Below, piece after piece: positions 49,923 through 64,000 of a DNA stretch of 64,000 nucleotides (the first letter of the stretch is position 1; each line of letters begins with the position of its first letter). A program made the translations under genes and the position numbers. The notes below the pieces were generated by a model that had not been told where the DNA came from, did no database searches, and saw only the letters and a list, made by a program, of their open reading frames with translations. Source of the stretch: Polynucleobacter hallstattensis (GTDB lineage: Bacteria; Pseudomonadota; Gammaproteobacteria; Burkholderiales; Burkholderiaceae); the NCBI RefSeq assembly GCF_018881835.1, contig NZ_JACVPO010000002.1:806001-870000 (forward strand). Reading direction: 5' to 3'.

Positions 49923-50774
49923 TCAAACTGGACTTTCAACATAAGCAATCCAATTTGATGGGTATACAAAAGTATGTCCTTCTCCATTTTCAAGCATGAT
50001 GTCAATATTAGATTTTTCTAGTTCTGTAACTAATTCTGGAGTGTATGGAGTACCCGTTGGCAGAACCCCGTTTACTGTTTTTACATCAGTAGAAAGAGTG
50101 ATTGATAGATTCATTCCCCTTCTATACTCCCATAATCTAGAAAGAAGTTCTTTGTAAGGGGTGCCAAAAAGAGGGGTGAATACTTCGTACTCAGACCAGG
50201 TATCGACTCGCCATTTACGTATATCTTCTAAGTGCAAGTCACCAAAAACTAGTCGTTCGATAGAACAACTCGTTCGATCTTGAACCATTACTAGAGCCTC
50301 TTCAATAGCTTTTTTATAGTCACTATTGGGATAAAGAGGAACTAAGCATAAAGGAATCTTTAAGAACTCGGATTGTTTTGCAATATTTTTAATATGGATG
50401 TCTTGAATTGATACTCGATTTGTAAGTGTGCCAAAACTCGTTAGCAATACAACGTTTCTTTTTTCTTCAAGTAAGTGCATTAAAGTTAAAAAGCTATCCT
50501 TGCCGCCAGACCAAAAGAGAACGTCCAACCCACCCTCTTTTGGAGTCCAATTCATGAGTATTGAATTAGCTATTTGTAGTTCGGTACGCTTGTGATTATT
50601 AACATTAATATGACCATATGGACAGTGACGGCAAGAGTTCCCACAGCATTTACCCTGCTTTAGAAGAGCATCACTTGTTAGCACTTGATATCCTGTAGCA
50701 GGGTCAATATAAGTACTTCGACCCTCATTGCATGCTGCTAAATGCAAATCACCTACATTAACCATAATTACCAT
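49923..50774 (-). CDS. DUF5522-Dph6-like ATP pyrophosphatase fusion
   Basis: This 283-aa protein has two parts. The N-terminal about 60 residues form a cysteine-rich DUF5522-type module (KCCGNSCRHCPYGH). The rest is an N-type ATP-pyrophosphatase of the Dph6/diphthine-ammonia ligase family, with the PP-loop FWSGGKDSFLTL and FGDLHLEDIRKWR. Bacteria lack diphthamide, so another amidation is implied. Its place between btuB and the cobalamin-binding protein suggests a corrinoid-related reaction. The Cys cluster may bind metal. Confidence 0.78.
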   Translation of the reverse strand: MVIMVNVGDLHLAACNEGRSTYIDPATGYQVLTSDALLKQGKCCGNSCRHCPYGHINVNNHKRTELQIANSILMNWTPKEGGLDVLFWSGGKDSFLTLMHLLEEKRNVVLLTSFGTLTNRVSIQDIHIKNIAKQSEFLKIPLCLVPLYPNSDYKKAIEEALVMVQDRTSCSIERLVFGDLHLEDIRKWRVDTWSEYEVFTPLFGTPYKELLSRLWEYRRGMNLSITLSTDVKTVNGVLPTGTPYTPELVTELEKSNIDIMLENGEGHTFVYPSNWIAYVESPV

Positions 50775-50793
50775 CCCTACTATACAAATAAAA

Positions 50794-50811
50794 GGCCACC
50801 TAATGGTGGCC
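50794..50811 (-). terminator. Terminator after btuB
   Basis: GGCCACC-ATTA-GGTGGCC on the minus strand is followed by TTTTATTTG, a compact rho-independent terminator 19 bp after the btuB stop. Confidence 0.75.
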
Positions 50812-50829
50812 GTAGATCGTTAAAGATTA

Positions 50830-52761
50830 CTATTTCATGGCATAACGAGCTCCAACAAAGACGTTAGAGCCTGGAGTGTTGTATCCATAGCTTAGCTGGT
50901 AGTCTTTGTTGAAGATATTATTCCAACGTCCAAATAAGGACCAATCTTTGGTAAGTTCATAATTACCATACAGGTTATAAATTGCATAGCCGCCCATGTA
51001 GCCGGTATTGTCGTAATTAGTACGATTAGCCTGGAAAGTGCCTTCAGCTCCTGCAGTCAATCTAGTGTTTTTGTACTCCGTGCCAATATTTCCAAATTGA
51101 CGTGCTCGTTTGGCTAAAACATATCCAGTACTCTGATCAATTGGGTTCTGTTGATCAAAAGAGCCTCGAATACTCATGTTACCGAATCGAGTTGTGCCAC
51201 CAACTGATAAACCAGTAATCTTTGCACTTGCTACATTACTCGCACAGCCGTAATTAGGGGCGGTATTTATTTGGGTTGAAGTGCAAGGAGGGGATGTGCT
51301 TGAGTACTGGATTAAGTTTGCAATTGAGTTGCTATAGGCAGCTAAACGAAGATCATATTGCCTAGTTTCGTAGTTAAGTCCAATTTCACTATTTTTACTT
51401 TTTTCTGGCTTAAGCGTTGGAACTCCATAGACTGGATAGTACATGTCATATAACGAGGGGGCCTTAAATCCTGTGCCGTAATTAATATTTGCCCTCAGCT
51501 GCTTTGTAAAGAAATAACCGTATGCAAGGTTACCAGTGGTCTGTGGACCATACCCCGTAATGCTGTCATTACGGATGCTGGCATTGCCCAGATGTGATCC
51601 ACGCTTTAGTTGATAGGCGCCAGCAAAAGAGTTTGTTGTTTGACTGAGATTTAAAGCGCCATCAGTTGCAGTTGCAGTAGCAACTTTTCGCTCAGCAACA
51701 AGCTGGATTAAATCGGACCCTACGTTAATATCATTTTGCCATGTATAAATATTTTGTCGTGAATTACTAATGGCATTACTGGTTGGAGTAAGTGACTGTG
51801 ATAAGTCATATGATTGTGAAGCTTGAAGAAGACTTTTCCAGTTCTGGGTAATTTGATTTTTTGAAAAAAGCGAATATGTGCTCACGTCATTGACTTGATT
51901 CCCAATTGGCTTGGAAGCTGAATAAACAGCATACTGGTTATTATTTCTTGCGGCAAATACTTGCAACCCAAATTCTTGCCCGCGTGCCCATTCCTGACTT
52001 ATTTTTCCAGCCCCTCCACTACGTGTATATCCCATATTTGAGCTGGTGTTAAATGAATTTCTAGAGGCATTATTTTGTGCAACGCTATTAAATCCGGTAG
52101 AAACTTCTTGCGTTGCACTTACGGAGTATCGAATCTTTTGATCACCAGATGTACTGCCGTAGAGACTTACATCTGAGATCGAGGTGCCGTAAGAGCCATA
52201 TCCAGTAGAAGCACCAACTTGCATTGGACCATCACCTGTTTTAGTAAAGATTTGTACAACACCACCAATGGCATCAGATCCATACAAGCTACTTTGCGGA
52301 CCAAAAATGATTTCAATATGATCAATTATTGATAAAGGAATAGCTTGCCATGCAGGTGAGCCGGTTAGGGTCGACTGAGACCGAACTCCGTCAATTAATA
52401 CCAAGGTTTGATTGGAGTTTGATCCCCTTAAAAAAACACTGGCAATTCCTCCGTTACCACCACTGCTGGATATTTCAACGCCACGCTGTCTTTGTAGCAG
52501 CTGCACTAGGCTCGACTGCGCCGCATCTGCAATTTCTTCTGGCCCAATATAAACGTAGTCTGCTAGAACATCATCGGCCTTAGTTGGCGTTCTTGTTGCG
52601 GTGACAATAATTGGATCCAACTGATTATTCAAATTTGATACCGAAACGGATGATGCTGCGTTTTGGGCAAATGCTACTGGCTGAGTAAAACTAAGCCCTA
52701 TTGATGCAACTAAAAATACAAAAAATGCGCTGTTGTTTTTTTTGGATATGCTGCGAAACAT
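50830..52761 (-). CDS. btuB: TonB-dependent cobalamin receptor BtuB-like
   Basis: This 643-aa outer-membrane receptor has signal SAFFVFLVASIGLSFTQPVAFA. The TonB box region and plug are DPIIVTATRTPTKADDVLAD, GGNGGIASVFLRGSNSNQTLVLIDGVR and IEIIFGPQSSLYGSDAIGGVVQIFTK. A beta-barrel follows, ending in GARYAMK. I place the start at the ATG at 52761 (GAGG ribosome site) because the upstream extension is the riboswitch leader. The cobalamin riboswitch and B12 neighbours support the substrate assignment. Confidence 0.9.
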   Translation of the reverse strand: MFRSISKKNNSAFFVFLVASIGLSFTQPVAFAQNAASSVSVSNLNNQLDPIIVTATRTPTKADDVLADYVYIGPEEIADAAQSSLVQLLQRQRGVEISSSGGNGGIASVFLRGSNSNQTLVLIDGVRSQSTLTGSPAWQAIPLSIIDHIEIIFGPQSSLYGSDAIGGVVQIFTKTGDGPMQVGASTGYGSYGTSISDVSLYGSTSGDQKIRYSVSATQEVSTGFNSVAQNNASRNSFNTSSNMGYTRSGGAGKISQEWARGQEFGLQVFAARNNNQYAVYSASKPIGNQVNDVSTYSLFSKNQITQNWKSLLQASQSYDLSQSLTPTSNAISNSRQNIYTWQNDINVGSDLIQLVAERKVATATATDGALNLSQTTNSFAGAYQLKRGSHLGNASIRNDSITGYGPQTTGNLAYGYFFTKQLRANINYGTGFKAPSLYDMYYPVYGVPTLKPEKSKNSEIGLNYETRQYDLRLAAYSNSIANLIQYSSTSPPCTSTQINTAPNYGCASNVASAKITGLSVGGTTRFGNMSIRGSFDQQNPIDQSTGYVLAKRARQFGNIGTEYKNTRLTAGAEGTFQANRTNYDNTGYMGGYAIYNLYGNYELTKDWSLFGRWNNIFNKDYQLSYGYNTPGSNVFVGARYAMK

Positions 52762-52850
52762 ACTGAATACCTCAATGTGGATTCCCTGACCAAAATCCCT
52801 GTTAGTCAGAATCAACGAAACCTGCAAAAAAGGTATGCAAAATGAACGCC

Positions 52851-52872
52851 ATCGCAAGATAGCGATAGCATC
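52851..52872 (-). promoter_or_regulatory. Expression-platform hairpin of the cobalamin riboswitch
   Basis: GCTATCGC-TATCTT-GCGATGGC forms a stem of eight pairs (one G-U) on the minus strand, followed at a short distance by a CCTTTTTT run. This fits a terminator that the cobalamin-bound aptamer would favour, upstream of the btuB start. Confidence 0.55.
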
Positions 52873-52879
52873 ATCGGCA

Positions 52880-53090
52880 TGCAAAGTCCCTCGTTGCAAA
52901 TTTCACCTGTTGAGGCCGGTATCCGGGCTGGAGAAACTAGGAATTTGGCCTTCCCGTGCAGTTAGACTGAACAGTGGCTATTTCAAATTCTTTGCCGACA
53001 CTACAAATTCGGCTTTCTCTTACCGTTGCGGGGACAGCGCACGTTTGGGTAGTGCTTCCCGTTTAACTTCAATGTCAAAGACATCAAAGC
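52880..53090 (-). promoter_or_regulatory. Cobalamin riboswitch upstream of btuB
   Basis: On the minus strand the canonical adenosylcobalamin aptamer elements occur in order: AACGGGAAGCAC near 53050, GCGCTGTCCCCGCAACGGT near 53030, a GCCACTG and GGGAAGGC segment near 52950-52980, and the conserved box AGCCCGGATACCGGCC (52929-52914). It occupies the gap between the small gene at 53129 and btuB and should switch btuB off when cobalamin is plentiful. Confidence 0.93.
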
Positions 53091-53128
53091 ACCATCAACT
53101 TGCTAAATGTAACATATTTAGGTGATGC

Positions 53129-53359
53129 TCACGAAGTTTCATCCAGTAGCGTGATTTTTAAGGGCACCTTATCTTGGGGTTTATAGACTTTAAGATAATT
53201 CTTAAGATCTCTTTTAGCCCCTTGAGCCTCAACTAAAGTGTTAAATCTGTAGGAATAATCCTGTAATTCTGGATAAATCAGCAATATAGGCAACCACTCA
53301 TTTGAGCCAGTTTTCCCAAGAAGGACATACTGACCCAAATGCTCATGCCCTACACTCAT
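53129..53359 (-). CDS. Hypothetical protein of the cobalamin block
   Basis: This 76-aa protein contains GHEHLGQYVLLGKTGSNEWL, LPILLIYPELQDYSYRFNTL and KDLKNYL-like charged helices. There is no signal or family that I recognise. It starts 8 bp after the BtuM-like gene stop and is thus probably cotranscribed with it, just upstream of the riboswitch. Function is unknown. Confidence 0.55.
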   Translation of the reverse strand: MSVGHEHLGQYVLLGKTGSNEWLPILLIYPELQDYSYRFNTLVEAQGAKRDLKNYLKVYKPQDKVPLKITLLDETS

Positions 53360-53367
53360 TGGCTTAA

Positions 53368-53922
53368 TTATTTAATTTTATTAAGGGCAACTACTCGACT
53401 TGCGATTGAAGTAACGACTAAGTGGGCCACCAATGCAACAAGTAAATAGCCAAGAGTAATTTCTAGAGCATACGGAAGGTACTGAACTATTCTGCTTGCA
53501 AATTCAGACAAGGATGACTGCCCAGCAACATTAATAAAGTAGTAACTTCCGCTTGAAATTAATTCGCAAACTATTGTTCCCAAGATTGAAGCCAATATGA
53601 AGTTTTTAAATGACGCGATGTCTAAAGAGGCATTTTTAGCAAGCCATCTACCTGCGAACCAAAGAGAGAGGTATGCAGGCAACAGAAAGGGATAAGCCAT
53701 TCCGAGCTGTGTAAAAGCTAAGTAATCAATTAAAAAAGCTTGGGCTAAAAATAAAGCAATTACCGCAAAACTCGAACAATAAAAGCCTACTATAAAAAAG
53801 ATAGCCCAAGATGCGTCCGGCAACTGGGAGAGGGATGCCATGTGGTGACCTCGGGTGAGCCACATAATTGCAGACAAGACAAAAATTAAAGCAATATTTT
53901 GATTTTTGGATAAACTCGACAT
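53368..53922 (-). CDS. BtuM-like cobalamin/cobalt membrane transporter
   Basis: This 184-aa protein has about six hydrophobic helices. The stretches MWLTRGHHMASLSQLPDASW, AIFFIVGFYCSSFAV and YPFLLPAYLSLWFAGRWLA resemble BtuM, a solitary ECF-type S component for vitamin B12. BtuM is known for a cysteine that binds cobalt shortly before the LPAY motif; I do not see a cysteine at that place (FTQLGMAYPF), although C49 is present. The location beside a cobalamin riboswitch and btuB supports the assignment. Confidence 0.7.
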   Translation of the reverse strand: MSSLSKNQNIALIFVLSAIMWLTRGHHMASLSQLPDASWAIFFIVGFYCSSFAVIALFLAQAFLIDYLAFTQLGMAYPFLLPAYLSLWFAGRWLAKNASLDIASFKNFILASILGTIVCELISSGSYYFINVAGQSSLSEFASRIVQYLPYALEITLGYLLVALVAHLVVTSIASRVVALNKIK

Positions 53923-54016
53923 GATTACTCTCCAATATTAGGGTGTCAGAGTTATTTTATATCCCATCGGCTTAATAGCCCCCTAAAAACACCTACCTGC
54001 ACGAAATACATTAAAA

Positions 54017-54691
54017 ATGATAATTCCAGCCATGGCCTCCTGGAGTGGCGGTAAAGATTCTTGCCTTGCTTTATGGCGTGCCCAACAGTCCGGAGTGTAT
54101 GTGACGCACCTATTAACAGCCCTTGATGAAACGGGTCTAAAGACACGCTCACATGGAGTTACGAAGGATTTAATCATTTCTCAAGGCAAATCCCTTGGGT
54201 TAATAAACGAATTTATTTGTGCCTCCTGGCAAGACTATGAGGGTCAATTCATAGAAAAACTTACTGAGCTACATAAAATTGGTATCAAAAAGGCAATCTT
54301 TGGAGATATTGATTTAATTAGTCATCGGGAATGGGAGGAAAAAGTTTGTCTTGCAGCAAACCTCACACTAACGCTACCACTCTGGAACGAAGATCGCTTA
54401 AAGCTAGTCCATGAATTTTTAGAAGCAGGGTTTAAAGCAAGGGTAGTTTGTGTTGACGGAAGATTTCTGAATGAATCTCATGTAGGGGTTGAATTTAATC
54501 ATCAATTCATCGAGAAATTACCTGACGGTGTTGATGCTTGTGGAGAGAATGGAGAATTTCATACATTTGTTTATGACGGTCCAAATTTTAAACAACCCGT
54601 CAGTTGGAAGAGTCTCGGAATAAAAACATATATATCTCCAGAGGAATTTGGCGCTCTAACATTTCATTTTGACTTGCTTGGATCACCCTGA
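54017..54691 (+). CDS. Dph6-like ATP pyrophosphatase
   Basis: This 224-aa N-type ATP-pyrophosphatase of the diphthine-ammonia ligase family has the PP-loop ASWSGGKDSCLALWRAQ, FGDIDLISHREWEEKVC, RFLNESHVGVEFNHQFIEKL and GENGEFHTFVYDG. It is the second Dph6-like protein in the block (compare 49923-50774) but lacks the cysteine module. As bacteria have no diphthamide, an amidation or activation step linked to corrinoid salvage is a reasonable hypothesis. It is divergent from the BtuM-like gene. Confidence 0.85.
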   Translation: MIIPAMASWSGGKDSCLALWRAQQSGVYVTHLLTALDETGLKTRSHGVTKDLIISQGKSLGLINEFICASWQDYEGQFIEKLTELHKIGIKKAIFGDIDLISHREWEEKVCLAANLTLTLPLWNEDRLKLVHEFLEAGFKARVVCVDGRFLNESHVGVEFNHQFIEKLPDGVDACGENGEFHTFVYDGPNFKQPVSWKSLGIKTYISPEEFGALTFHFDLLGSP

Positions 54692-55460: not shown

Positions 55461-55597
55461 CAATGAGAAAGTAAATCGCTAATTTAATAATATTTGCATT
55501 AAATCATGTAAATTAAATACATGCTGAAGTCGCAAATTTAGGCTTTTTTGGGTGTTGAGACTCAAGCTAGAATTCATCACAAATTATGAGGGAAGCG

Positions 55598-56149
55598 ATG
55601 ATTAATAGATACTCAAGCTATGCTCGCGTAATACATTGGTTTACAGCATTGGCCATACTCGCTCTGGTAATTTTAGGCTTTTGGATGACTCAAAGAGCTG
55701 CAGCCAATTTATGGGACAACCTAACCAATACACTCTATGGATGGCATAAATTGATCGGCTTTACAGTCTTACTGGTTACGATCTTTAGATTTTGCCTCAA
55801 ACTAAATTCCAAAACACCCCCCTATCCCAATGCCATCTCGCCTTCTTTGGTCAAAGTTGCATCAATAGTGCACTACACGCTTTACGGCTTATTGTTTGTT
55901 GTGCCTATGCTGGGGTGGGCCGGCGTTACAGCATATCCAGCTTTGATTACCCTAGGAGGCTACTCACTGCCAGCCATGCCAGGCATACCGAAGAGCGAAC
56001 TGATTGCCAAGCAGATCTTCCAAATACATGGACTGCTAGCAATGACCCTCATAGCCATCATACTCTTACATATCGTAGCCGGCCTTAATCACCTCATTAT
56101 CAAGCGGGATGGTATTTTTCAAAGAATCTGGTTTGATAAAAAGAAATAG
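55598..56149 (+). CDS. Cytochrome b561
   Basis: This 183-aa four-helix di-heme cytochrome b of the bacterial b561 family has RYSSYARVIHWFTALAILAL, YGWHKLIGFTVLL, VKVASIVHYTLYGLLFVVPM and LLAMTLIAIILLHIVAGLNH, which place heme-ligand histidines in each helix pair. It is thought to carry out superoxide or quinol electron transfer in the inner membrane. I chose the ATG at 55598 because a GAGGGA ribosome site precedes it; an ATG 12 bp upstream overlaps that site. Confidence 0.88.
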   Translation: MINRYSSYARVIHWFTALAILALVILGFWMTQRAAANLWDNLTNTLYGWHKLIGFTVLLVTIFRFCLKLNSKTPPYPNAISPSLVKVASIVHYTLYGLLFVVPMLGWAGVTAYPALITLGGYSLPAMPGIPKSELIAKQIFQIHGLLAMTLIAIILLHIVAGLNHLIIKRDGIFQRIWFDKKK

Positions 56150-56188: not shown

Positions 56189-57268
56189 CTAAATCTCAAA
56201 TAAGTGCCCGCTTTTTTTAGCTTTCACACGAAGATATTCGTCGTTATGCTTATTTGAGGGATAAATATGAGGAACCCTCTCGGATACTTCAATGCCGCAC
56301 TTTTGCAATGAATCCACTTTTGCAGGATTGTTTGTCATGAGTCGAACTTTATGGATCCCAAGCATCTGGAGCATTTGTGCAGCTGGAAGATAGTTGCGCT
56401 CATCCGCATCAAAACCAAGTTGAAGATTAGCATCTACAGTATCAAACCCTGAATCTTGAAGTTGATAAGCTCGGAGTTTATTAACGAGGCCGATTCCACG
56501 CCCCTCTTGCGCGAGATATAAAAGAATGCCGCTGCCTGATTTGGACATTTCTGAAATAGCACCCCTCAGCTGAATCCCACAATCGCAACGTAAGGATCCG
56601 ACCAGATCGCCGGTAAAGCATTCTGAATGCAAACGAACTAATACTGGTTTTAGTGGATCAATCTTGCCGATCATGATGGCGAGATGTTCTATGCCGCCAT
56701 CTCGAGGACGAAAGGCAATCACTTGAGCATCCTCAGCGTTCTCCAGCGGCACACGAGCCTGACTCACTTGCGTCAGTGAATTGGCTGCATTTTTCATATA
56801 GTCATCAATTAAAGATGCTTTGACCGTTGGAATATCTGTCAATGGCAAATTCTGAATCACTAGCGCAGCTGGTAGCAGTCTAGATAATTTGGCGAGAGTA
56901 ATACAAGAGGCCTCTAATGAATTGGCATCTCTAATACTGAGACCGTCTAAGTTGGGAGGACTCATCACCATAGATAATGGATTAGCTAGAAATTCAACAA
57001 GCTCAATTGAAAGACCGTCTGTGCCAGTTAAAAGGCTAATTGGCCGATCTGATTTATCGATACCCAACACATTGAGTCGGGTACCGGTTAAGACTAGACC
57101 AAGAGGGATAGCATCAAACTGTGACAGTAATTTGAAATTGTCGGCATTCAAGGCATCAACTGCCAGCATTACGATACTGCTGCCCAAATGCTCTACACGA
57201 ACCATACCGCCTCTACGGAGCTCTGAAATGACTCGGTCAACTTCTATCAGGGGGTCAAGCATTAACAT
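56189..57268 (-). CDS. ribA: GTP cyclohydrolase II-like protein with atypical N-domain
   Basis: This 359-aa protein's C-terminal half is a complete GTP cyclohydrolase II: zinc cysteines in SECFTGDLVGSLRCDCGIQL, LAQEGRGIGLVNKLRAYQLQ, LGFDADERNY and RLMTNNPAKV. It would open GTP to a diaminopyrimidine. The N-terminal 165 residues have the place and rough pattern of a RibB domain but lack the RENEGD catalytic motif, so they are probably degenerate. With a RibD reductase domain, a PTPS-like protein and a glycosyltransferase nearby, this looks like a specialised paralogue rather than the riboflavin gene. Confidence 0.85.
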   Translation of the reverse strand: MLMLDPLIEVDRVISELRRGGMVRVEHLGSSIVMLAVDALNADNFKLLSQFDAIPLGLVLTGTRLNVLGIDKSDRPISLLTGTDGLSIELVEFLANPLSMVMSPPNLDGLSIRDANSLEASCITLAKLSRLLPAALVIQNLPLTDIPTVKASLIDDYMKNAANSLTQVSQARVPLENAEDAQVIAFRPRDGGIEHLAIMIGKIDPLKPVLVRLHSECFTGDLVGSLRCDCGIQLRGAISEMSKSGSGILLYLAQEGRGIGLVNKLRAYQLQDSGFDTVDANLQLGFDADERNYLPAAQMLQMLGIHKVRLMTNNPAKVDSLQKCGIEVSERVPHIYPSNKHNDEYLRVKAKKSGHLFEI

Positions 57269-57361
57269 GTTGGTAAAAGTAGAAAAGTATGGATAAACTA
57301 ATTATTACACCTTATGGTAAATTCGTTTTACCGCCTTTCATCACCCTAAAGAAGCTTCTTT

Positions 57362-58171
57362 GTGACCATCCTAGAGCCAAATTCTCAAGATATAAAAGTA
57401 GAGCTCGATACAGAGGCAATTGAGCAGTGGTCCATTTTTTTGAGCCAATTTTTTTCATCTCAAGCACTTGCAAATTCAACACTTAAAGCCATTTTTGATC
57501 CCATCAGAATATCCACGATTGACTCAATGATGGTGGTTGGTCAGTTGGGACAAACCATTGATGGACGTATTGCCACTATTACCGGTCAATCCAGATACAT
57601 TAACGGCCACTACGGCCTTATGCACCTTCATCAGTTAAGGGCACTCGTAGATGCGGTTGTTGTTGGAGTTGGGACCGTATTGGCAGATGACCCACAGCTC
57701 AACGTAAGGCTTGTCGAAGGAAAAAATCCAGCACGTGTTGTCATTGACCCCAAAGGGAGGCTAGACCCAAAGGCACGTATTTGGGAGAATGATGATGCTA
57801 AAAGATTATGGATTGTTTCCGATGGGCTCGATCTAGAACCGCCTGAGGGAGTAAAAATCATTTCATTACCTATTACCGATGGTCATATTGAACCGGCAAT
57901 GATCTTAAAAAGCTTAAGTCTAGAGGGTCTCAAGAGGATTTTGATTGAGGGAGGCGCAGAAACCATTTCTCGTTTTTTGCAAGCAAATTGCTTAGACCAC
58001 CTTCATGTAATTGTTGCCCCAATTATTATGGGTTCGGGAAGAGCTAGCTTTAATTTAAAAGCGATTGAACACATGGATCAAGCATCACGGTTAAATGTAC
58101 AAACACATTTACTGGGTAGTGATGTGCTTTTTGACTGCGACCTCAGCTCATCACGCACTAAGTTAAATTAA
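57362..58171 (+). CDS. RibD C-terminal (reductase) domain protein
   Basis: This 269-aa protein contains the RibD_C/dihydrofolate-reductase-like reductase domain: GQLGQTIDGRIATITGQSRY, DAVVVGVGTVLADDPQLNVR, RVVIDPKGRLDP and RILIEGGAETISRFLQ. The deaminase domain of RibD is absent; instead about 60 unassigned residues precede the reductase. Start is GTG at 57362, 93 bp from the divergent GTP cyclohydrolase II-like gene. It would reduce a ribosylaminopyrimidine or similar sugar in an NADPH-dependent step. Confidence 0.85.
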   Translation: MTILEPNSQDIKVELDTEAIEQWSIFLSQFFSSQALANSTLKAIFDPIRISTIDSMMVVGQLGQTIDGRIATITGQSRYINGHYGLMHLHQLRALVDAVVVGVGTVLADDPQLNVRLVEGKNPARVVIDPKGRLDPKARIWENDDAKRLWIVSDGLDLEPPEGVKIISLPITDGHIEPAMILKSLSLEGLKRILIEGGAETISRFLQANCLDHLHVIVAPIIMGSGRASFNLKAIEHMDQASRLNVQTHLLGSDVLFDCDLSSSRTKLN

Positions 58172-58183
58172 TCAGCAATCTAA

Positions 58184-59281
58184 CTAATTAGCTCTATAGG
58201 CTTTAATAACATCTGCAAATGCTGTTGCAGATTCTATCCAAGTAGGTAGTTTTTCGGCAGCTTCTTTCGCACCTAAAGACAATTGCTGGCGTCGATGCGC
58301 ATCAAGCATTACTAGTTTCAAAGCTGCTGTAAGAGTTGTTACATCACCCGGAGGAGTCAGCACCCCGGCAGAGTCTGGAACAGTCTGACTAATTGCGCCG
58401 CCACTGGTTCCCACGACTGGGAGTGCATATGACAGAGCTTCAGCATATGCCATCCCGTAGCCCTCAAACAGAGAGGCGAGCACAAATCCATCGGCCTCTC
58501 GATAGAAAGAATCTAGGTGCATGCTATCGACAACACCATGAATATGTATTCGATCCTGCAATTGAAAATATGCAATGCTCTTAAGCAAATTAGAATAGGC
58601 TTTCACATCACGAGTGTTATCGCCAACAATAGACAAACTCCATGGCAATTCATTTAAGGGAGCAAGGGCTGCGATCAAAATATCAAAACCCTTACGGGGA
58701 ATGATGCTCCCGACAGAGAGCCACTTAAACTCGTTTTGACTTGTAAAGTGACTTCTCACTTGATGCAAAGGAGGGGATACCTGATTTGTTCCCGGAATTA
58801 CAGTAGTTATTTTTTTGCCATCAACCCCAAATGATTCCATTAGAGTTTGAGCCGTCAATGGACTGTTCGCAATCACGTGATCCGCATATGAAAGCGCTAA
58901 TTTCTCGCTTCTCTGAAACTTTACTTGCTGATCTATAGTCAAACCAGACTCAAAAGCTAATGGATGGTGTATCAGAGCAATGATAGGGTGGTTAACGGAC
59001 GCCTGAGCAATGGCCTCTGGCATGACACCAAGCGCTAAACCATCTATAACAATGGGCTTATCTGGCTCTATCTGAGATAGAAGGTACTCTGCTTTATTGA
59101 GCGTTTCCTGATCTGGGAAAGGAAAGCTAGGCCCCAGACTCAGCAGCTCTATCTCCCAACCCTGGGTCCTTAGCTCTTTAATAACATGACGATCGTATAT
59201 GTAGCCACCGCTGACTGTTTGCAAATCTCCAGGGTATGCGAAAACGAAAGCATTCACACATGAAGGAGATGTTGTACTCAA
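58184..59281 (-). CDS. GT4 family glycosyltransferase
   Basis: This 365-aa GT-B glycosyltransferase has AYPGDLQTVSGGYIYDRHVI, HVIANSPLTAQTLME, WLSVGSIIPRKGFDILIAAL, VLASLFEGYGMAYAEALSYA and LPVVGTSGGAI. It starts at TTG, overlapping the PTPS-like stop by 4 bp (TTGA), so it belongs to the same operon. Its association with pterin- and flavin-type enzymes suggests glycosylation of a pteridine-like product. Sugar donor and acceptor are unknown. Confidence 0.87.
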   Translation of the reverse strand: MSTTSPSCVNAFVFAYPGDLQTVSGGYIYDRHVIKELRTQGWEIELLSLGPSFPFPDQETLNKAEYLLSQIEPDKPIVIDGLALGVMPEAIAQASVNHPIIALIHHPLAFESGLTIDQQVKFQRSEKLALSYADHVIANSPLTAQTLMESFGVDGKKITTVIPGTNQVSPPLHQVRSHFTSQNEFKWLSVGSIIPRKGFDILIAALAPLNELPWSLSIVGDNTRDVKAYSNLLKSIAYFQLQDRIHIHGVVDSMHLDSFYREADGFVLASLFEGYGMAYAEALSYALPVVGTSGGAISQTVPDSAGVLTPPGDVTTLTAALKLVMLDAHRRQQLSLGAKEAAEKLPTWIESATAFADVIKAYRAN

Positions 59282-59679
59282 TGCAGCTTACCTTCGTACC
59301 ACGCTCTTGCTATATGTGATTCTGAAATAGTCACGCGGATGGCATGTAATTCGCTCATCGGACGACCCAAACTATTTGCTTTCGCTGCTGCAGCGAGTTG
59401 ATCAAAGATATATTTAGTTAAAAATTCTGTAGTTGTATTCATACCTTTAAATTGCGGAAGAATATCTAGGTTGGCATAATTTAAGGGTTTTAAAGTTGCC
59501 TTCAGAACATCTAAGGCGCAGCCAATATCAATCACAATACCGTTTTCATCAAGCTCTTGTGAAATAAAAGCAGCATCAACTACGAATGTTGCGCCATGCA
59601 AAGCTTGTGCCGGCCCAAAAACTGCGCCCTTAAAAGAATGGGCAATCATGATGTGATCGCGAACTTCAACTGTAAACAT
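59278..59679 (-). CDS. 6-pyruvoyltetrahydropterin synthase-like protein with altered zinc site
   Basis: This 133-aa T-fold protein is of the PTPS/QueD family, starting FTVEVRDHIMIAHSFKG and containing LHGATFVVDAAF, VIDIGCALDVLKATLKPLNY and MNTTTEFLTKYIFDQL. Zinc ligands H14 and H28 are kept, but the third ligand of the usual HGH motif is alanine (HGA, residue 30), the catalytic cysteine before it is absent, and the DH of the LDHxxLN motif is NY. The chemistry must therefore differ from queuosine or BH4 synthesis. It is coupled to the glycosyltransferase and follows the dehydrogenase by 13 bp. Confidence 0.8.
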   Translation of the reverse strand: MFTVEVRDHIMIAHSFKGAVFGPAQALHGATFVVDAAFISQELDENGIVIDIGCALDVLKATLKPLNYANLDILPQFKGMNTTTEFLTKYIFDQLAAAAKANSLGRPMSELHAIRVTISESHIARAWYEGKLH

Positions 59680-59692
59680 ATATTTTTCCTTA

Positions 59693-60679
59693 TTAATATT
59701 GAATCAAACAGCACAGCGCAGAACTCTGAGCGCTAAAGATCTGTGGTAACTCTGATGGTAAGGCTTCAAAGCTGATTGGCTTAGTCAGGAGAACATCTAA
59801 ACGAGAGTCGCTCAACATTGCTAGTGCAGTGGCAAGTCTACGACGATGGCTCCAGCGCGGTCTGTGAGATAGAGAGATATGTCCAACCTGGCTAGACTGG
59901 AGTTTTAACTGACGACTATGAAAAGCACCACCCAAAGACACATCTATTTTGTTTGAGCCATACCAACTCAGCTCGAGAATGGTTGCTTCTTCACCTGCCG
60001 ACGAAATTGCAGTTGAAAGGCCGGCGGCACTCGCACTACAGTGAATCACCAGATCACAATCTTTTGGCGCTAATTCAGGAGAGCTAAACTGAACACCCAG
60101 TTTTTTTGCGACCTCTTCACGCTCAGGATTGATGTCGACTAAAGTTACCTCAGCACCAGGAAGATGCCCACATAAATAGGCGATTAAGCAACCGAGTACA
60201 CCCGCACCAATAATCACAATACGGTCGCCAGGCCCTGGAGACGCATCCCAAACAGCGTTTAAAGCTGTTTCCATATTGGCTGCTAACACTGCACGTTGGG
60301 CCGGGATTTCTCTAGGAATCACTAGGATATTGTTAGCATCGGCTTGAAAAATCGATTGGTGGGGCATGAGGCTAAATACAAGCTGTCCGATTAGTTCAGG
60401 GGGACCAAGCTCGACCCTACCCACATTGGAATACCCATACTTGACTGGAAATGGGAACTTGCCACCCATAAATGGCGCCCCCATACGACTGTATTCACTT
60501 TCGGGGATAAGCCCTTTAAATACGAGAGATTCTGTACCTCGACTGAGCGCACTAAATAAAGTACGCACTTGAACATTGTTTTTAGGCAAGGGGTCAAGAA
60601 TTTCCGAGCGAATCTCAATACGCTCAGGAGCCACATACCATAAAGATTGACTAACGACTGAGTCCAAAGGATGATCCAC
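59693..60679 (-). CDS. BchC-like medium-chain dehydrogenase
   Basis: This 328-aa MDR-family dehydrogenase has SALSRGTESLVFKGLIPE in place of the catalytic zinc CGTD loop, KYGYSNVGRVE, and the NAD(P) loop IIGAGVLGCLIAYLCGHLPG followed by VDINPEREEVAKKLGV. The SRGTE variant is typical of BchC-like and related zinc-poor dehydrogenases. Start is GTG. It is the first gene of the operon with the PTPS-like and glycosyltransferase genes, and likely oxidises a side-chain alcohol of their substrate. Confidence 0.82.
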   Translation of the reverse strand: MDHPLDSVVSQSLWYVAPERIEIRSEILDPLPKNNVQVRTLFSALSRGTESLVFKGLIPESEYSRMGAPFMGGKFPFPVKYGYSNVGRVELGPPELIGQLVFSLMPHQSIFQADANNILVIPREIPAQRAVLAANMETALNAVWDASPGPGDRIVIIGAGVLGCLIAYLCGHLPGAEVTLVDINPEREEVAKKLGVQFSSPELAPKDCDLVIHCSASAAGLSTAISSAGEEATILELSWYGSNKIDVSLGGAFHSRQLKLQSSQVGHISLSHRPRWSHRRRLATALAMLSDSRLDVLLTKPISFEALPSELPQIFSAQSSALCCLIQY

Positions 60680-60720: not shown

Positions 60721-60753
60721 CCTATACTGCTGATGCGTATTTCATAGTATAGG
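60721..60753. promoter_or_regulatory. Inverted repeat between dehydrogenase and opgH-like genes
   Basis: CCTATACT (60721) and AGTATAGG (60746) are perfect 8-bp complements with a 17-nt spacer, located in the divergent promoter region and ending 15 bp before the glucosyltransferase start. It could be an operator or a small stem-loop. Confidence 0.4.
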
Positions 60754-60768
60754 TGAGCTTAGGATAAA

Positions 60769-62538
60769 TTGAAGACCTCAGTAAATAAACACCCCATAAA
60801 AGCAGTGTCGATTCGTCGAGCCATTTTCTGCTTACTTTTCATACTCACATCAGTATTCATGTTGTGGCTTCTATATCAAACACTACATCAGTATTTCCCC
60901 ACCCCAATTCTCTGGTCATTAATAGTCCTTTTTTCGCTCACCTTACCCTGGATGGTGATTGGTTTCTGGAATGCGATTATTGGCTTTTTAATTTGTCTTT
61001 TAATAAAGAATCCACTTTCTATTGTTCTACCTAAAAATATGCAAGATTGCGAAGATATGCCTTTAAATAGCTCTACAGCTCTTTTACTGTGTATTCGAAA
61101 TGAAGAGTCATCAAGGGTAGTTCGTAATCTGCAAATTATGATTGACAGTCTAATCAATGCAGGCATTGAAAAATATTTCCATGTTTATATCCTTAGCGAC
61201 AGCACTACTGAAACCATTAGGCAATCTGAAAGTGCGCTTTTCGAGAAATTAAATAAAGAGTATGGACAAAGAATTAATATCGTCTATCGCTGTCGCGAAA
61301 ATAATGAAGGATATAAGGCAGGAAATATTGCTAACTTTTGTCAGCAGTATGGAAAATTGCATCACTTTGCCATCACGCTGGATGCTGATAGCTTTATGAC
61401 TGCTGCAGCAATGAAAAGACTTGTTCAAATGATGCAATCGAATCCGCGACTAGGGATATTGCAAGGTCTTGTTATTGGTCTGCCATCAAGCAGTGCCTTC
61501 ACTCGTCTTTTTCAATACGGCATGCGTCTTGGAATGCGCTCATACACTATGGGTTCAGCATGGTGGCAATCTGATTTTGGTCCTTATTGGGGTCATAACG
61601 CAATTATTCGCCTTGATCCTTTTGTGCAGCACTGTCAGTTTTCGGAGATTAAGACCGCTTCAGGGTATACGAAACAGATACTTAGCCATGATTTAGTCGA
61701 AGCAGTACTCATGCGTCGTGCTGATTTTGAAGTGCGCGTTTATCCATCTGAAGATAGCAGTTGGGAAGAAAATCCACCAACTCTGACAGAATATATTCGT
61801 CGCGATTTAAGATGGTGCGAAGGAAATCTTCAATACATCCATCTCCTCACCCTTCCCAATCTCAAGTTGATTAGTCGGATACAGCTTGTTTTAGCAATAT
61901 TTATGTTTCTGGGCTCACCAGCATGGATTGCGCTGATGATTATCTGCACTCTCTCTATCGCTACTTTTCCATCCATTCAAGAAACTGCCAGTGGAGTTTA
62001 TTTTCATACGTTTATTTGGCTTACTCTCTTAATGTGGTACCTACCAAAAGTTGCTGGAGCCCTCAATGTCTTACTCAATACAAAAGAATCCCAACGTTTT
62101 GGTGGTCGATGGCGTTTTACCATTAGCCTCTTACTTGAAACGATATTTTCTCTATTGATGACTCCAATTGCCTGGCTTAATCACACTATTTTTATGATGA
62201 ATCTTGCTCTAGGACGTCAAGGGGGTTGGTCATCACAGGCGAGGGATGACCATACCGTCAACATATCGAATGCAGTCAAGCAATTTTGGCCACATACAGC
62301 ATTAGGAATTGCCTTGACCTTGACGCTATATCTTAGTCATAGAAATGCTACCTATTTTGGTTTATTAATTTTTGGCGGTCTATTAGGATCGATACCCTTA
62401 GCAGTGATAACGTCGCAGTCCTGGCTAAGCAATCTCATGATGAAATACAAACTTTTATCCTCTCCAGAAGAAATTACTACGCCAGATGAATTAGCACCCC
62501 TCCGCCTAAAAGCTTTAAATCATCACCACAGTAATTAA
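60769..62538 (+). CDS. opgH: OpgH/MdoH-like glucosyltransferase
   Basis: This 589-aa membrane GT2 glucosyltransferase of the osmoregulated periplasmic glucan type has N-terminal helices. The catalytic region runs VYILSDSTTE, TLDADSFMTAAAMKRLVQMM, HDLVEAVLMRRADFEVRVYP, the acceptor-site SEDSSWEENPP and RRDLRWCEGN, and further helices follow. At 589 aa it is shorter than E. coli OpgH (about 850), lacking the long N-terminal extension. Start is TTG with TTAGGAT upstream. It is followed 8 bp later by an NdvA-type exporter rather than opgG. Confidence 0.88.
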   Translation: MKTSVNKHPIKAVSIRRAIFCLLFILTSVFMLWLLYQTLHQYFPTPILWSLIVLFSLTLPWMVIGFWNAIIGFLICLLIKNPLSIVLPKNMQDCEDMPLNSSTALLLCIRNEESSRVVRNLQIMIDSLINAGIEKYFHVYILSDSTTETIRQSESALFEKLNKEYGQRINIVYRCRENNEGYKAGNIANFCQQYGKLHHFAITLDADSFMTAAAMKRLVQMMQSNPRLGILQGLVIGLPSSSAFTRLFQYGMRLGMRSYTMGSAWWQSDFGPYWGHNAIIRLDPFVQHCQFSEIKTASGYTKQILSHDLVEAVLMRRADFEVRVYPSEDSSWEENPPTLTEYIRRDLRWCEGNLQYIHLLTLPNLKLISRIQLVLAIFMFLGSPAWIALMIICTLSIATFPSIQETASGVYFHTFIWLTLLMWYLPKVAGALNVLLNTKESQRFGGRWRFTISLLLETIFSLLMTPIAWLNHTIFMMNLALGRQGGWSSQARDDHTVNISNAVKQFWPHTALGIALTLTLYLSHRNATYFGLLIFGGLLGSIPLAVITSQSWLSNLMMKYKLLSSPEEITTPDELAPLRLKALNHHHSN

Positions 62539-62546
62539 GCATCCTC

Positions 62547-64000
62547 ATGAGCCTTGTTAGAACCTATACACGTGCATTAAAAAAGCTTAGCTCTGATAGT
62601 AGGCTTGCTTGGATTTTGGCGCTTGCCAATATAGCACTTGCTATTACACTTTTTGCAGAACCAATATTGTTTGGCAAGGTTATCAACACTCTAGCTAATA
62701 CTGAAGCTTCGCAATCCACCCCTTTATGGAATGAAGTCGCACCTTTATTAATTATTTGGATACTTTTTGGATTTTTTACGATTGGTACTTCAACACTCGT
62801 TGCCCTATTTTCTGATCGTCTAGCACATCGCCAACGTCATAAAGTCTTTGGTGAATATTTTGAGCATGTATTACATATGCCTCTGAAACAGCAGTCACAA
62901 ACTCACTCTGGTCGTTTGATGAAAATCATGATCGCAGGTACAGACACCCTCTGGTGGCTCTGGCTAAGTTTTTTTCGTGAACATCTAGCCGCTTTCATCT
63001 CTTTAGTCATACTCATTCCATTAGCGCTATATATGAATTGGCGGTTAGCTTTAGTGCTCATTGGGCTCTGTTTATTTTTTGGACTGCTTACCCACTTCAT
63101 CTTACGAAAAACTCAAGATCTGCAGCAAGCAATTGAAAGCCACCATTCAGACTTAGCGGAATTAGCTTCTGACACTCTCAGCAATATTGCACTAGTACAG
63201 AGTTTTTCTAGAATTCAGCTTGAGGTGAAAGCTTTGAAGGGCATCAGCCAAAAGGTACTCAATGCTCAGTTACCCGTTCTATCATGGTGGGCAATAGTCA
63301 CGGTACTCACAAAATCTGCAACAACACTCAGTATTCTCTGTATTGTTATTTTAGGATCATGGCTTTACACGAAGTCACTAATAACAATAGGCGAAATAGT
63401 TACCTTTATTGCTTTTGCAGGTATTTTTATTGGCCGCTTAGAACAAATCGTTACATTTGCTGATAAGTTAGCAATAGACGCCCCCAGACTACAGCAGTTT
63501 TTTGAAATCTTAGATACATCACCAGATATTCAAAATATACCGAATGCAATAGATCCGGGGCGATGTGTTGGTTTGATCGAATTTAATGAAGTCTTCTTTA
63601 GTTATAACAATCGCCATAAAGCGATTGATGGGGTTAGCTTTAGTGTAAATCCAGGCGAGACAATTGCTTTAGTTGGCGTGTCTGGGGCTGGAAAATCTAC
63701 TGTGCTGAGCCTGCTGTATCGCGCCTTTGATACCCAGTCCGGACGAATCACTATAGATGGTATTGATGTCAAAAATTTTGATCTATCAGCACTGCGCAGA
63801 AATATTGGCGTGGTCTTTCAAGAGCCCTTGTTATTTAATCGCTCTATTGCTGAAAACCTTCTGGTTGGTGCGCCAAACGCGAGTGAAGAAGAGATACGAA
63901 AAGCCTGTCAACGTGCACAAGCTCTTGAATTTATTGAAAAACAGCCTGAGGGTTTTGACACTATCATCGGCGAAAGAGGGAGAATTCTTTCTGGAGGCGA
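62547..64000 (+). CDS. ndvA: NdvA/ChvA-type glucan ABC exporter (partial)
   Basis: This ABC exporter half-transporter, cut by the window end after 484 codons, has a six-helix membrane domain (residues about 20-320). The nucleotide-binding domain follows, with VGVSGAGKSTVLSLLYRAFD (Walker A), the Q-loop region IGVVFQEPLLFNRSIAENLL and the start of the signature (GRILSGG). The N-terminal AWILALANIALAITLFAEPILFGKV is characteristic of NdvA/ChvA cyclic beta-glucan exporters. It overlaps no gene and sits 8 bp after opgH, so the glucan made by OpgH is presumably its cargo. Confidence 0.88.
   Translation, partial: MSLVRTYTRALKKLSSDSRLAWILALANIALAITLFAEPILFGKVINTLANTEASQSTPLWNEVAPLLIIWILFGFFTIGTSTLVALFSDRLAHRQRHKVFGEYFEHVLHMPLKQQSQTHSGRLMKIMIAGTDTLWWLWLSFFREHLAAFISLVILIPLALYMNWRLALVLIGLCLFFGLLTHFILRKTQDLQQAIESHHSDLAELASDTLSNIALVQSFSRIQLEVKALKGISQKVLNAQLPVLSWWAIVTVLTKSATTLSILCIVILGSWLYTKSLITIGEIVTFIAFAGIFIGRLEQIVTFADKLAIDAPRLQQFFEILDTSPDIQNIPNAIDPGRCVGLIEFNEVFFSYNNRHKAIDGVSFSVNPGETIALVGVSGAGKSTVLSLLYRAFDTQSGRITIDGIDVKNFDLSALRRNIGVVFQEPLLFNRSIAENLLVGAPNASEEEIRKACQRAQALEFIEKQPEGFDTIIGERGRILSGG

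Follow-up and report, generated by a model that had tools for sequence, protein, structure and literature searches.

The window analysed in the present study is a stretch of 64,000 nucleotides from the 2.1-Mb genome of Polynucleobacter hallstattensis (contig NZ_JACVPO010000002.1, positions 806,001 to 870,000 of the forward strand). A nine-gene unit occupies window positions 55586-65225, its last two genes crossing or exceeding the window end. The gene order is cytochrome b561, GTP cyclohydrolase II (RibA), RibD reductase domain (RibD_C), GT4 glycosyltransferase, PTPS-like T-fold protein and MDR dehydrogenase, and a divergent arm beyond the dehydrogenase encodes an MdoH-like glucosyltransferase, a glucan-type ABC exporter and a methyltransferase. 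Herein, we describe the conservation of this unit and the pathway that it might encode.

Organization of the gene cluster

An original prediction, made from the window sequence, had singled out the five genes from RibA to the dehydrogenase. These open reading frames (ORFs) were all recovered at the same positions, and Pfam and NCBIfam searches agreed with the families proposed: RibA (56189-57268, minus strand; PF00925, 203.5 bits, cut-off 23.3), a stand-alone RibD_C without a deaminase domain (57362-58171, plus strand; PF01872, 139.4 bits, cut-off 24.1), GT4 (58184-59281, minus strand; PF00534, Glycos_transf_1, 79.3 bits, cut-off 26.4), the T-fold protein (59278-59679, minus strand; PTPS PF01242, 69.9 bits, cut-off 22.4) and the MDR-fold dehydrogenase (59693-60679, minus strand; ADH_zinc_N, 26 bits, under the cut-off of 31.8). 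The coupled starts ascribed to the cluster were observed from the dehydrogenase through the T-fold gene to GT4 (a gap of 13 bp, then a stop and a start overlapping in TTGA) and not for the remaining genes. RibA lies on the same strand as these three genes but is set apart, and RibD_C is found on the opposite strand between RibA and GT4, so the five genes do not form one operon. The five-gene cluster is real and conserved, but its extent was drawn too small, the unit comprising nine genes in the genus.

The additional members are mostly membrane genes. The MdoH-like GT2 enzyme (60769-62538, plus strand; NCBIfam PRK05454.2-1, 507.5 bits, cut-off 419) and the ABC exporter (62547-64000, gene to 64304, plus strand; PRK13657, 807.6 bits, cut-off 733) both exceed curated cut-offs. 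A class I SAM methyltransferase belonging to the cluster family is encoded immediately beyond the window (64338-65225 in window numbering, plus strand; L139:17339-18226), and the b561-like membrane protein is a peripheral member at the other end (55586-56149, plus strand; PF01292, 91.8 bits).

Two intergenic elements were observed. A conserved box, ATTATNNCACCNTATGGTAAATT (57301-57323), lies in the divergent RibA/RibD_C region and was found in 10/10 aligned Polynucleobacter loci, its exact core being confined to Polynucleobacter among 227 loci compared; the P. rarus locus (L053), where RibA is missing, also lacks the box. It is a candidate shared operator or promoter, and a genome-wide search for a regulon found it in single copy in the host at up to 3 mismatches. 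In the divergent dehydrogenase/MdoH-like region, an inverted repeat (60721-60753) consists of CCTATACT and AGTATAGG separated by about 16-17 nucleotides, and congeners carry similar but imperfect counterparts.

Conservation and distribution

In a phylum sample of 299 genomes, a close T-fold homologue (E 3e-37 or better) was found in 19, host included, the next match standing at E 2e-10. The dehydrogenase and GT4 were encoded nearby in 18/18 of the other genomes, RibD_C and the methyltransferase in 16/18 each and RibA in 7/18. This association, judged from the counts without a formal statistic, is more than chance, and the conservation on which the original prediction had staked itself is present. 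A scan of genome contigs returned at least 595 pattern matches, at least 582 of them encoding a T-fold relative at E 1e-3, and the 80 best matches to the window's own T-fold protein were kept. In all, 104 loci were compared, or 99 distinct loci once 5 genomes present twice are discounted (doubles remain in some other tallies), with presence scored by phmmer on stop-to-stop frames inside the fetched flanks. Less than 6 kb was available on one side at 24/104 loci, and 75 distinct loci have at least 6 kb on both sides.

Among the distinct loci, the dehydrogenase was present at 94, GT4 at 97, the methyltransferase at 88, RibD_C at 68 and RibA at 42; the corresponding counts were 70 for MdoH-like enzymes, 19 for a CDP-alcohol phosphatidyltransferase, 15 for a flippase-like protein, 36 for b561, 12 for the glucan-type ABC exporter and 8 for a creatininase. 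Dehydrogenase, T-fold protein, GT4 and methyltransferase occurred all together in 83/99, and these four genes are the constant core, with RibD_C, RibA and the membrane genes variable. GT4 and methyltransferase even share one reading frame at five loci (L045, L046, L049, L050 and L132). The MdoH-like enzyme and the CDP-alcohol phosphatidyltransferase look like alternatives, since just two loci, L049 and L050, combine them, with an MdoH match that scores low (69 and 58 bits) and falls at the edge of the locus. Apart from ABC transporters and genes from related genomes, clustering of neighbouring genes revealed no further strongly shared family. Of the 104 loci, 13 carry a large YfhO/PMT-like membrane protein, encoded directly after RibA in one of them (L089:13790-16129).

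T-fold relatives were present in 20 plasmid records, including those of Streptomyces, Rhizobium and Methylosinus, and the same core occurs on actinobacterial plasmids; a search of phage records gave 0 matches. Within Polynucleobacter the gene is patchy (13/151 genomes, host included). Loci were fetched from 9 of the 12 other congeners that carry it, and the nine-gene order, b561 included, was kept in 9/9, although one contig (L224) stops within the exporter, leaving the methyltransferase beyond view. Ratios of nonsynonymous to synonymous substitution (dN/dS) of 0.056-0.267 against one congener (L218, G362) show selection on all nine genes; against a second (L220), synonymous distances were mostly saturated. 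In a tree of dehydrogenase, T-fold protein and GT4 (99 rows, 6 dropped for gaps, rooted on Streptomyces L134, labels taken from record titles), ten betaproteobacterial-labelled rows cluster (support 0.545) within a 24-row clade (0.995) whose other labelled rows are alphaproteobacterial, weakly suggesting that the cluster was acquired from Alphaproteobacteria.

Properties of the encoded proteins

The T-fold protein matches the solved structure 3d7j (SCO6650), deposited as uncharacterised, at E 8e-60 over profile positions 1-131, and its sequence places it in the SCO6650 type. In an alignment of 111 sequences including 3d7j (five genomes counted twice), the positions that we take, from the family alignment, to be those of the PTPS active site are largely altered: the catalytic Cys and the third zinc His are both Ala in 111/111, the triad His is lost in 111/111 and the triad Asp is kept in only 4/111. 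The first two zinc His and Glu120 are retained in 111/111, as are G, A, Q, H28, A30 and T31 of a GPAQ..HGAT motif, the P being kept in 110/111. Glu120 is presumably the pterin-anchoring Glu of PTPS, an assignment made on the family alignment, the alignment to 3d7j ending before this residue. Identity with QueD/PTPS (COG0720 I-III) was rejected on the two Ala substitutions, and the lost active site contradicts the annotation "6-carboxytetrahydropterin synthase" that the T-fold gene bears in 14/20 plasmid records. SCO6650 itself reportedly lacks zinc and PTPS activity. On three Streptomyces plasmids (L136, L167 and L169), solitary T-fold genes were seen with no dehydrogenase or GT4 nearby, their neighbours being BTAD regulators, sigma factors and cupin genes.

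RibA has 2bz0 as its closest solved chain and carries an N-terminal extension of about 160 residues with no Pfam match. Equivalents of the Cys54/65/67 zinc triad, Tyr105 and Arg128 (E. coli numbering) are kept, and on these residues the protein qualifies as a predicted GTP cyclohydrolase II. The triad is intact in all 43 scorable cluster RibA rows (one genome twice; L063 partial and unscored), and the Tyr105 equivalent is Tyr in 41/43, the window included, Met in Streptomyces L134 and Leu in L112. A second Streptomyces locus (L168) is also of the Met type, so that a creatininase-family gene adjoins the Met-type RibA in 2/2 of the Streptomyces clusters with RibA. Met-type RibA is said, in 2006 work by Spoonamore, to stop at a formyl intermediate; if so, this pairing fits a split of ring opening from deformylation. 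A strict rule linking the two was rejected and is at most a hint, since four loci have a creatininase with Tyr-type RibA and four have one with no RibA seen; the creatininase count itself depends on the rule, with 9 loci for any match and 8 for the best match without duplicates. Assignment of the creatininases of L134 and L044 to ArfB was also rejected (37 and 21.9 bits against the NF033501 cut-off of 180).

The best solved chains for RibD_C are 6p8c, named as a reductase of a non-deaminated pyrimidine, and 2azn. The dehydrogenase had been called BchC-like in the original prediction, and BchC (TIGR01202) is its best NCBIfam match, but membership fails by score (40.6 bits against a cut-off of 291.25). 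Its AlphaFold2 model (mean pLDDT 93.1) retrieved tied top matches of general MDR folds, e.g. 4oh1 (Z 31.1, rmsd 2.8, 296 residues aligned), consistent with a predicted MDR fold. In 32 sequences, Cys323, near the C-terminus, is the sole Cys column common to at least half, and His107 and His254 are invariant; the usual MDR zinc site therefore looks absent, although the protein may still bind a metal. For the methyltransferase, a fold search with a model of the P. rarus protein returned general class I methyltransferase folds only.

Housekeeping riboflavin and queuosine genes

The original prediction had noted the cluster to be free of riboflavin and queuosine partners, and separate sets were indeed observed in the host: riboflavin synthase, full RibD, RibBX and lumazine synthase at about 588 kb of one contig (G000:C1), and a QueD-like PTPS with an intact C..HLHGH motif, adjoining a QueE-like radical-SAM protein, at about 499 kb of another (G000:C2). 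The cluster was accordingly rejected as the housekeeping riboflavin operon, ribE, ribH and the deaminase domain being absent among its genes and present at G000:C1. The expectation of second ribA and ribD copies elsewhere was borne out in part. A full ribD exists, but the cyclohydrolase domain of the host ribBX (L051:5754-6896) lacks the zinc cysteines, and a whole-genome search gave only two GTP cyclohydrolase II matches, this domain and the cluster RibA. The cluster RibA is therefore the only canonical, zinc-type GTP cyclohydrolase II found in the genome, and as such it may also feed riboflavin.

By score, a canonical GTP cyclohydrolase II was found in 9/61 Polynucleobacter genomes, host included, suggesting that the genus mostly does without one; 47 of the other 52 have only a lower-scoring match, mostly of the ribBX kind, and 5 have no match, 10/61 genomes being below high completeness and purity and two broken pieces in G330 being left unclassified. 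Inspection of the residues themselves showed zinc loss in 22 ribBX rows (L002 and L180-L200), 21 of them from congeners. Four congeners (G322, G329, G342 and G359) carry a canonical ribA with no T-fold match. RibBX of Aeromonas salmonicida and Shewanella oneidensis lacked GTP cyclohydrolase II activity, and ribA was essential for riboflavin in A. salmonicida (PMC10012899).

Proposed pathway and rival explanations

Herein, we propose that the cluster encodes a dedicated route from GTP, diverging from the riboflavin/pterin pathway, to a glycosylated, methylated pyrimidine or pterin that is finished or exported at the membrane, and we place the probability of this reading at about 0.55. RibA, with its active-site residues intact, would open GTP and deformylate it to a diaminopyrimidine, and RibD_C, to judge from family membership, might convert the ribosyl chain to a ribityl chain. 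The T-fold protein, in which the PTPS/QueD site is lost and the Glu thought to hold the pterin is kept, may then form or remodel the ring or the side chain together with the dehydrogenase. GT4 would attach a sugar and the methyltransferase would cap the same compound, and the MdoH-like enzyme and the ABC exporter might act at the membrane to complete the product or to transport it, a role that the CDP-alcohol phosphatidyltransferase and the flippase-like protein may take in other lineages. The substrates, the order of these steps and the export are all inferred, and with moderate confidence the product is a ribityl-pterin or ribityl-pyrimidine. The dedicated glycosylated pteridine or aminopyrimidine route of the original prediction thus survives in part: conservation and separate housekeeping genes favour it, but the unit is larger and contains the only canonical copy of RibA. 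Nothing found favours the light-related role or pigment also suggested, photoreceptor and photolyase genes not having been specifically sought.

Several observations weigh against the proposed route. RibD_C is absent at 31/99 distinct loci and RibA at 57/99, and with at least 6 kb on both flanks the absences are still 23/75 and 39/75. A distant copy of RibD_C was sought for 22 of 24 long-flank loci lacking it, two plasmid loci being left out; among the 21 genomes concerned, 5 hold a copy (44-52% identity), in 15 the sole match is weaker and of the housekeeping RibD kind, and 1 has none. RibD_C is not strictly required, given that only 5/21 of these genomes hold an orthologue elsewhere, and because RibA and RibD_C are so often missing, the true substrate may be an intermediate of housekeeping metabolism, possibly a deaminated one. 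Moreover, 2azn, the second match of RibD_C, was deposited as a uracil-type reductase, and the bacterial and archaeal RibD_C models of NCBIfam score about equally, both under cut-off. For the creatininase-like protein, the MftE and creatininase models outscore ArfB, all under cut-off, and the four pairings of this protein with Tyr-type RibA also count here, as do the solitary T-fold genes of Streptomyces plasmids.

The frequency of membrane genes raises the possibility that the cluster is an envelope-glycan system whose PTPS and RibD relatives have been co-opted for the chemistry of sugars or lipid head groups, with no free pterin. An MdoH-like enzyme or a CDP-alcohol phosphatidyltransferase at 87/99 distinct loci, the glucan-type exporter within the unit and sulfatase-type, FkbM and flippase-like neighbours would all fit, but the membrane genes change between lineages while the core stays constant, the RibA active site is intact and MdoG/OpgG has no match in the host genome; this explanation is unlikely. 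The sole canonical RibA beside a zinc-less ribBX, the inactive RibBX and essential ribA reported for other bacteria (PMC10012899) and the four congeners with ribA and no T-fold gene would instead be explained if RibA and RibD_C mainly served riboflavin and the other genes were a separate adjoining unit. Such an arrangement is harder to reconcile with a genus in which only 9/61 genomes have a canonical enzyme by score, with the full ribD elsewhere in the host, and with RibA and RibD_C lying beside the core in 9/9 congener loci and in other classes, and we consider it distinctly unlikely.

The least probable of these alternatives appears to be that an analogue of a pterin or flavin serves outside the cytoplasm as a redox cofactor or pigment and exchanges electrons with b561: b561 is present in 9/9 congeners and the exporter belongs to the same nine-gene unit, but b561 was seen at 36/99 distinct loci and not found at 63/99, and no acceptor protein was identified. 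Compared with these explanations, the dedicated route from GTP is preferred. In its boldest form, which we think unlikely to hold as a whole, a widespread and horizontally spread pathway would yield a new exported or membrane-bound glycosylated, methylated ribityl-pterin serving as a flavin-like cofactor or pigment, using new, zinc-free T-fold chemistry and one of two interchangeable membrane modules. The constant partners define a testable pathway, which would assign a function to a T-fold family that has a solved structure and is encoded on at least 582 contig stretches.

Elsewhere in the window, a TonB-receptor-like ORF (50830-52899) is flanked by a pair of DUF71/Dph6-like ORFs (49923-50774 and 54017-54691), the whole region spanning 49923-54691. 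The pair carry ENGEGH and ENGEFH, which resemble the ENGEF/YH motif that one report ties to B12 salvage and not to diphthamide (PMC3541065).

Comparison with known systems

One solved, uncharacterised family member (3d7j) is already known, and no paper describing the conserved cluster was found in the open-access literature, most subscription papers lying outside its reach. With QueD/PTPS-I and PTPS-II/III of COG0720 the T-fold protein shares the PF01242 fold, but their motifs, CxxxHGH, CxxxxxHGH and ExxHGH in a 2016 review (PMC5041015), are absent, and GPAQxxHGA is found instead. PTPS-V, given there as of unclear function, may be the group of the cluster T-fold protein. The riboflavin operon has the RibA and RibD_C families in common with the cluster, which differs in lacking the deaminase, ribE and ribH that the host holds elsewhere. 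The OpgGH/ChvA glucan systems share the MdoH-like enzyme and the ABC exporter, both past curated cut-offs, but osmoregulated periplasmic glucan synthesis (OpgGH) was rejected, MdoG/OpgG giving 0 matches in the host genome in a search whose control found MdoG in E. coli. The toxoflavin cluster, like the present one, combines GTP cyclohydrolase II, a RibD relative and a methyltransferase, but it is not known to include a PTPS-like or GT4 gene. With the SCO6650/SCO6655 system of Streptomyces, where the GTP cyclohydrolase II paralogue SCO6655 reportedly stops at the formyl intermediate, the likeness extends to two plasmid loci that share the cluster core and add Met-type RibA and a creatininase. 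Compared with Streptomyces, the key RibA residue is Tyr and not Met in 41/43 scorable rows, and the host has an MdoH-like enzyme and an ABC exporter where Streptomyces has a CDP-alcohol phosphatidyltransferase.

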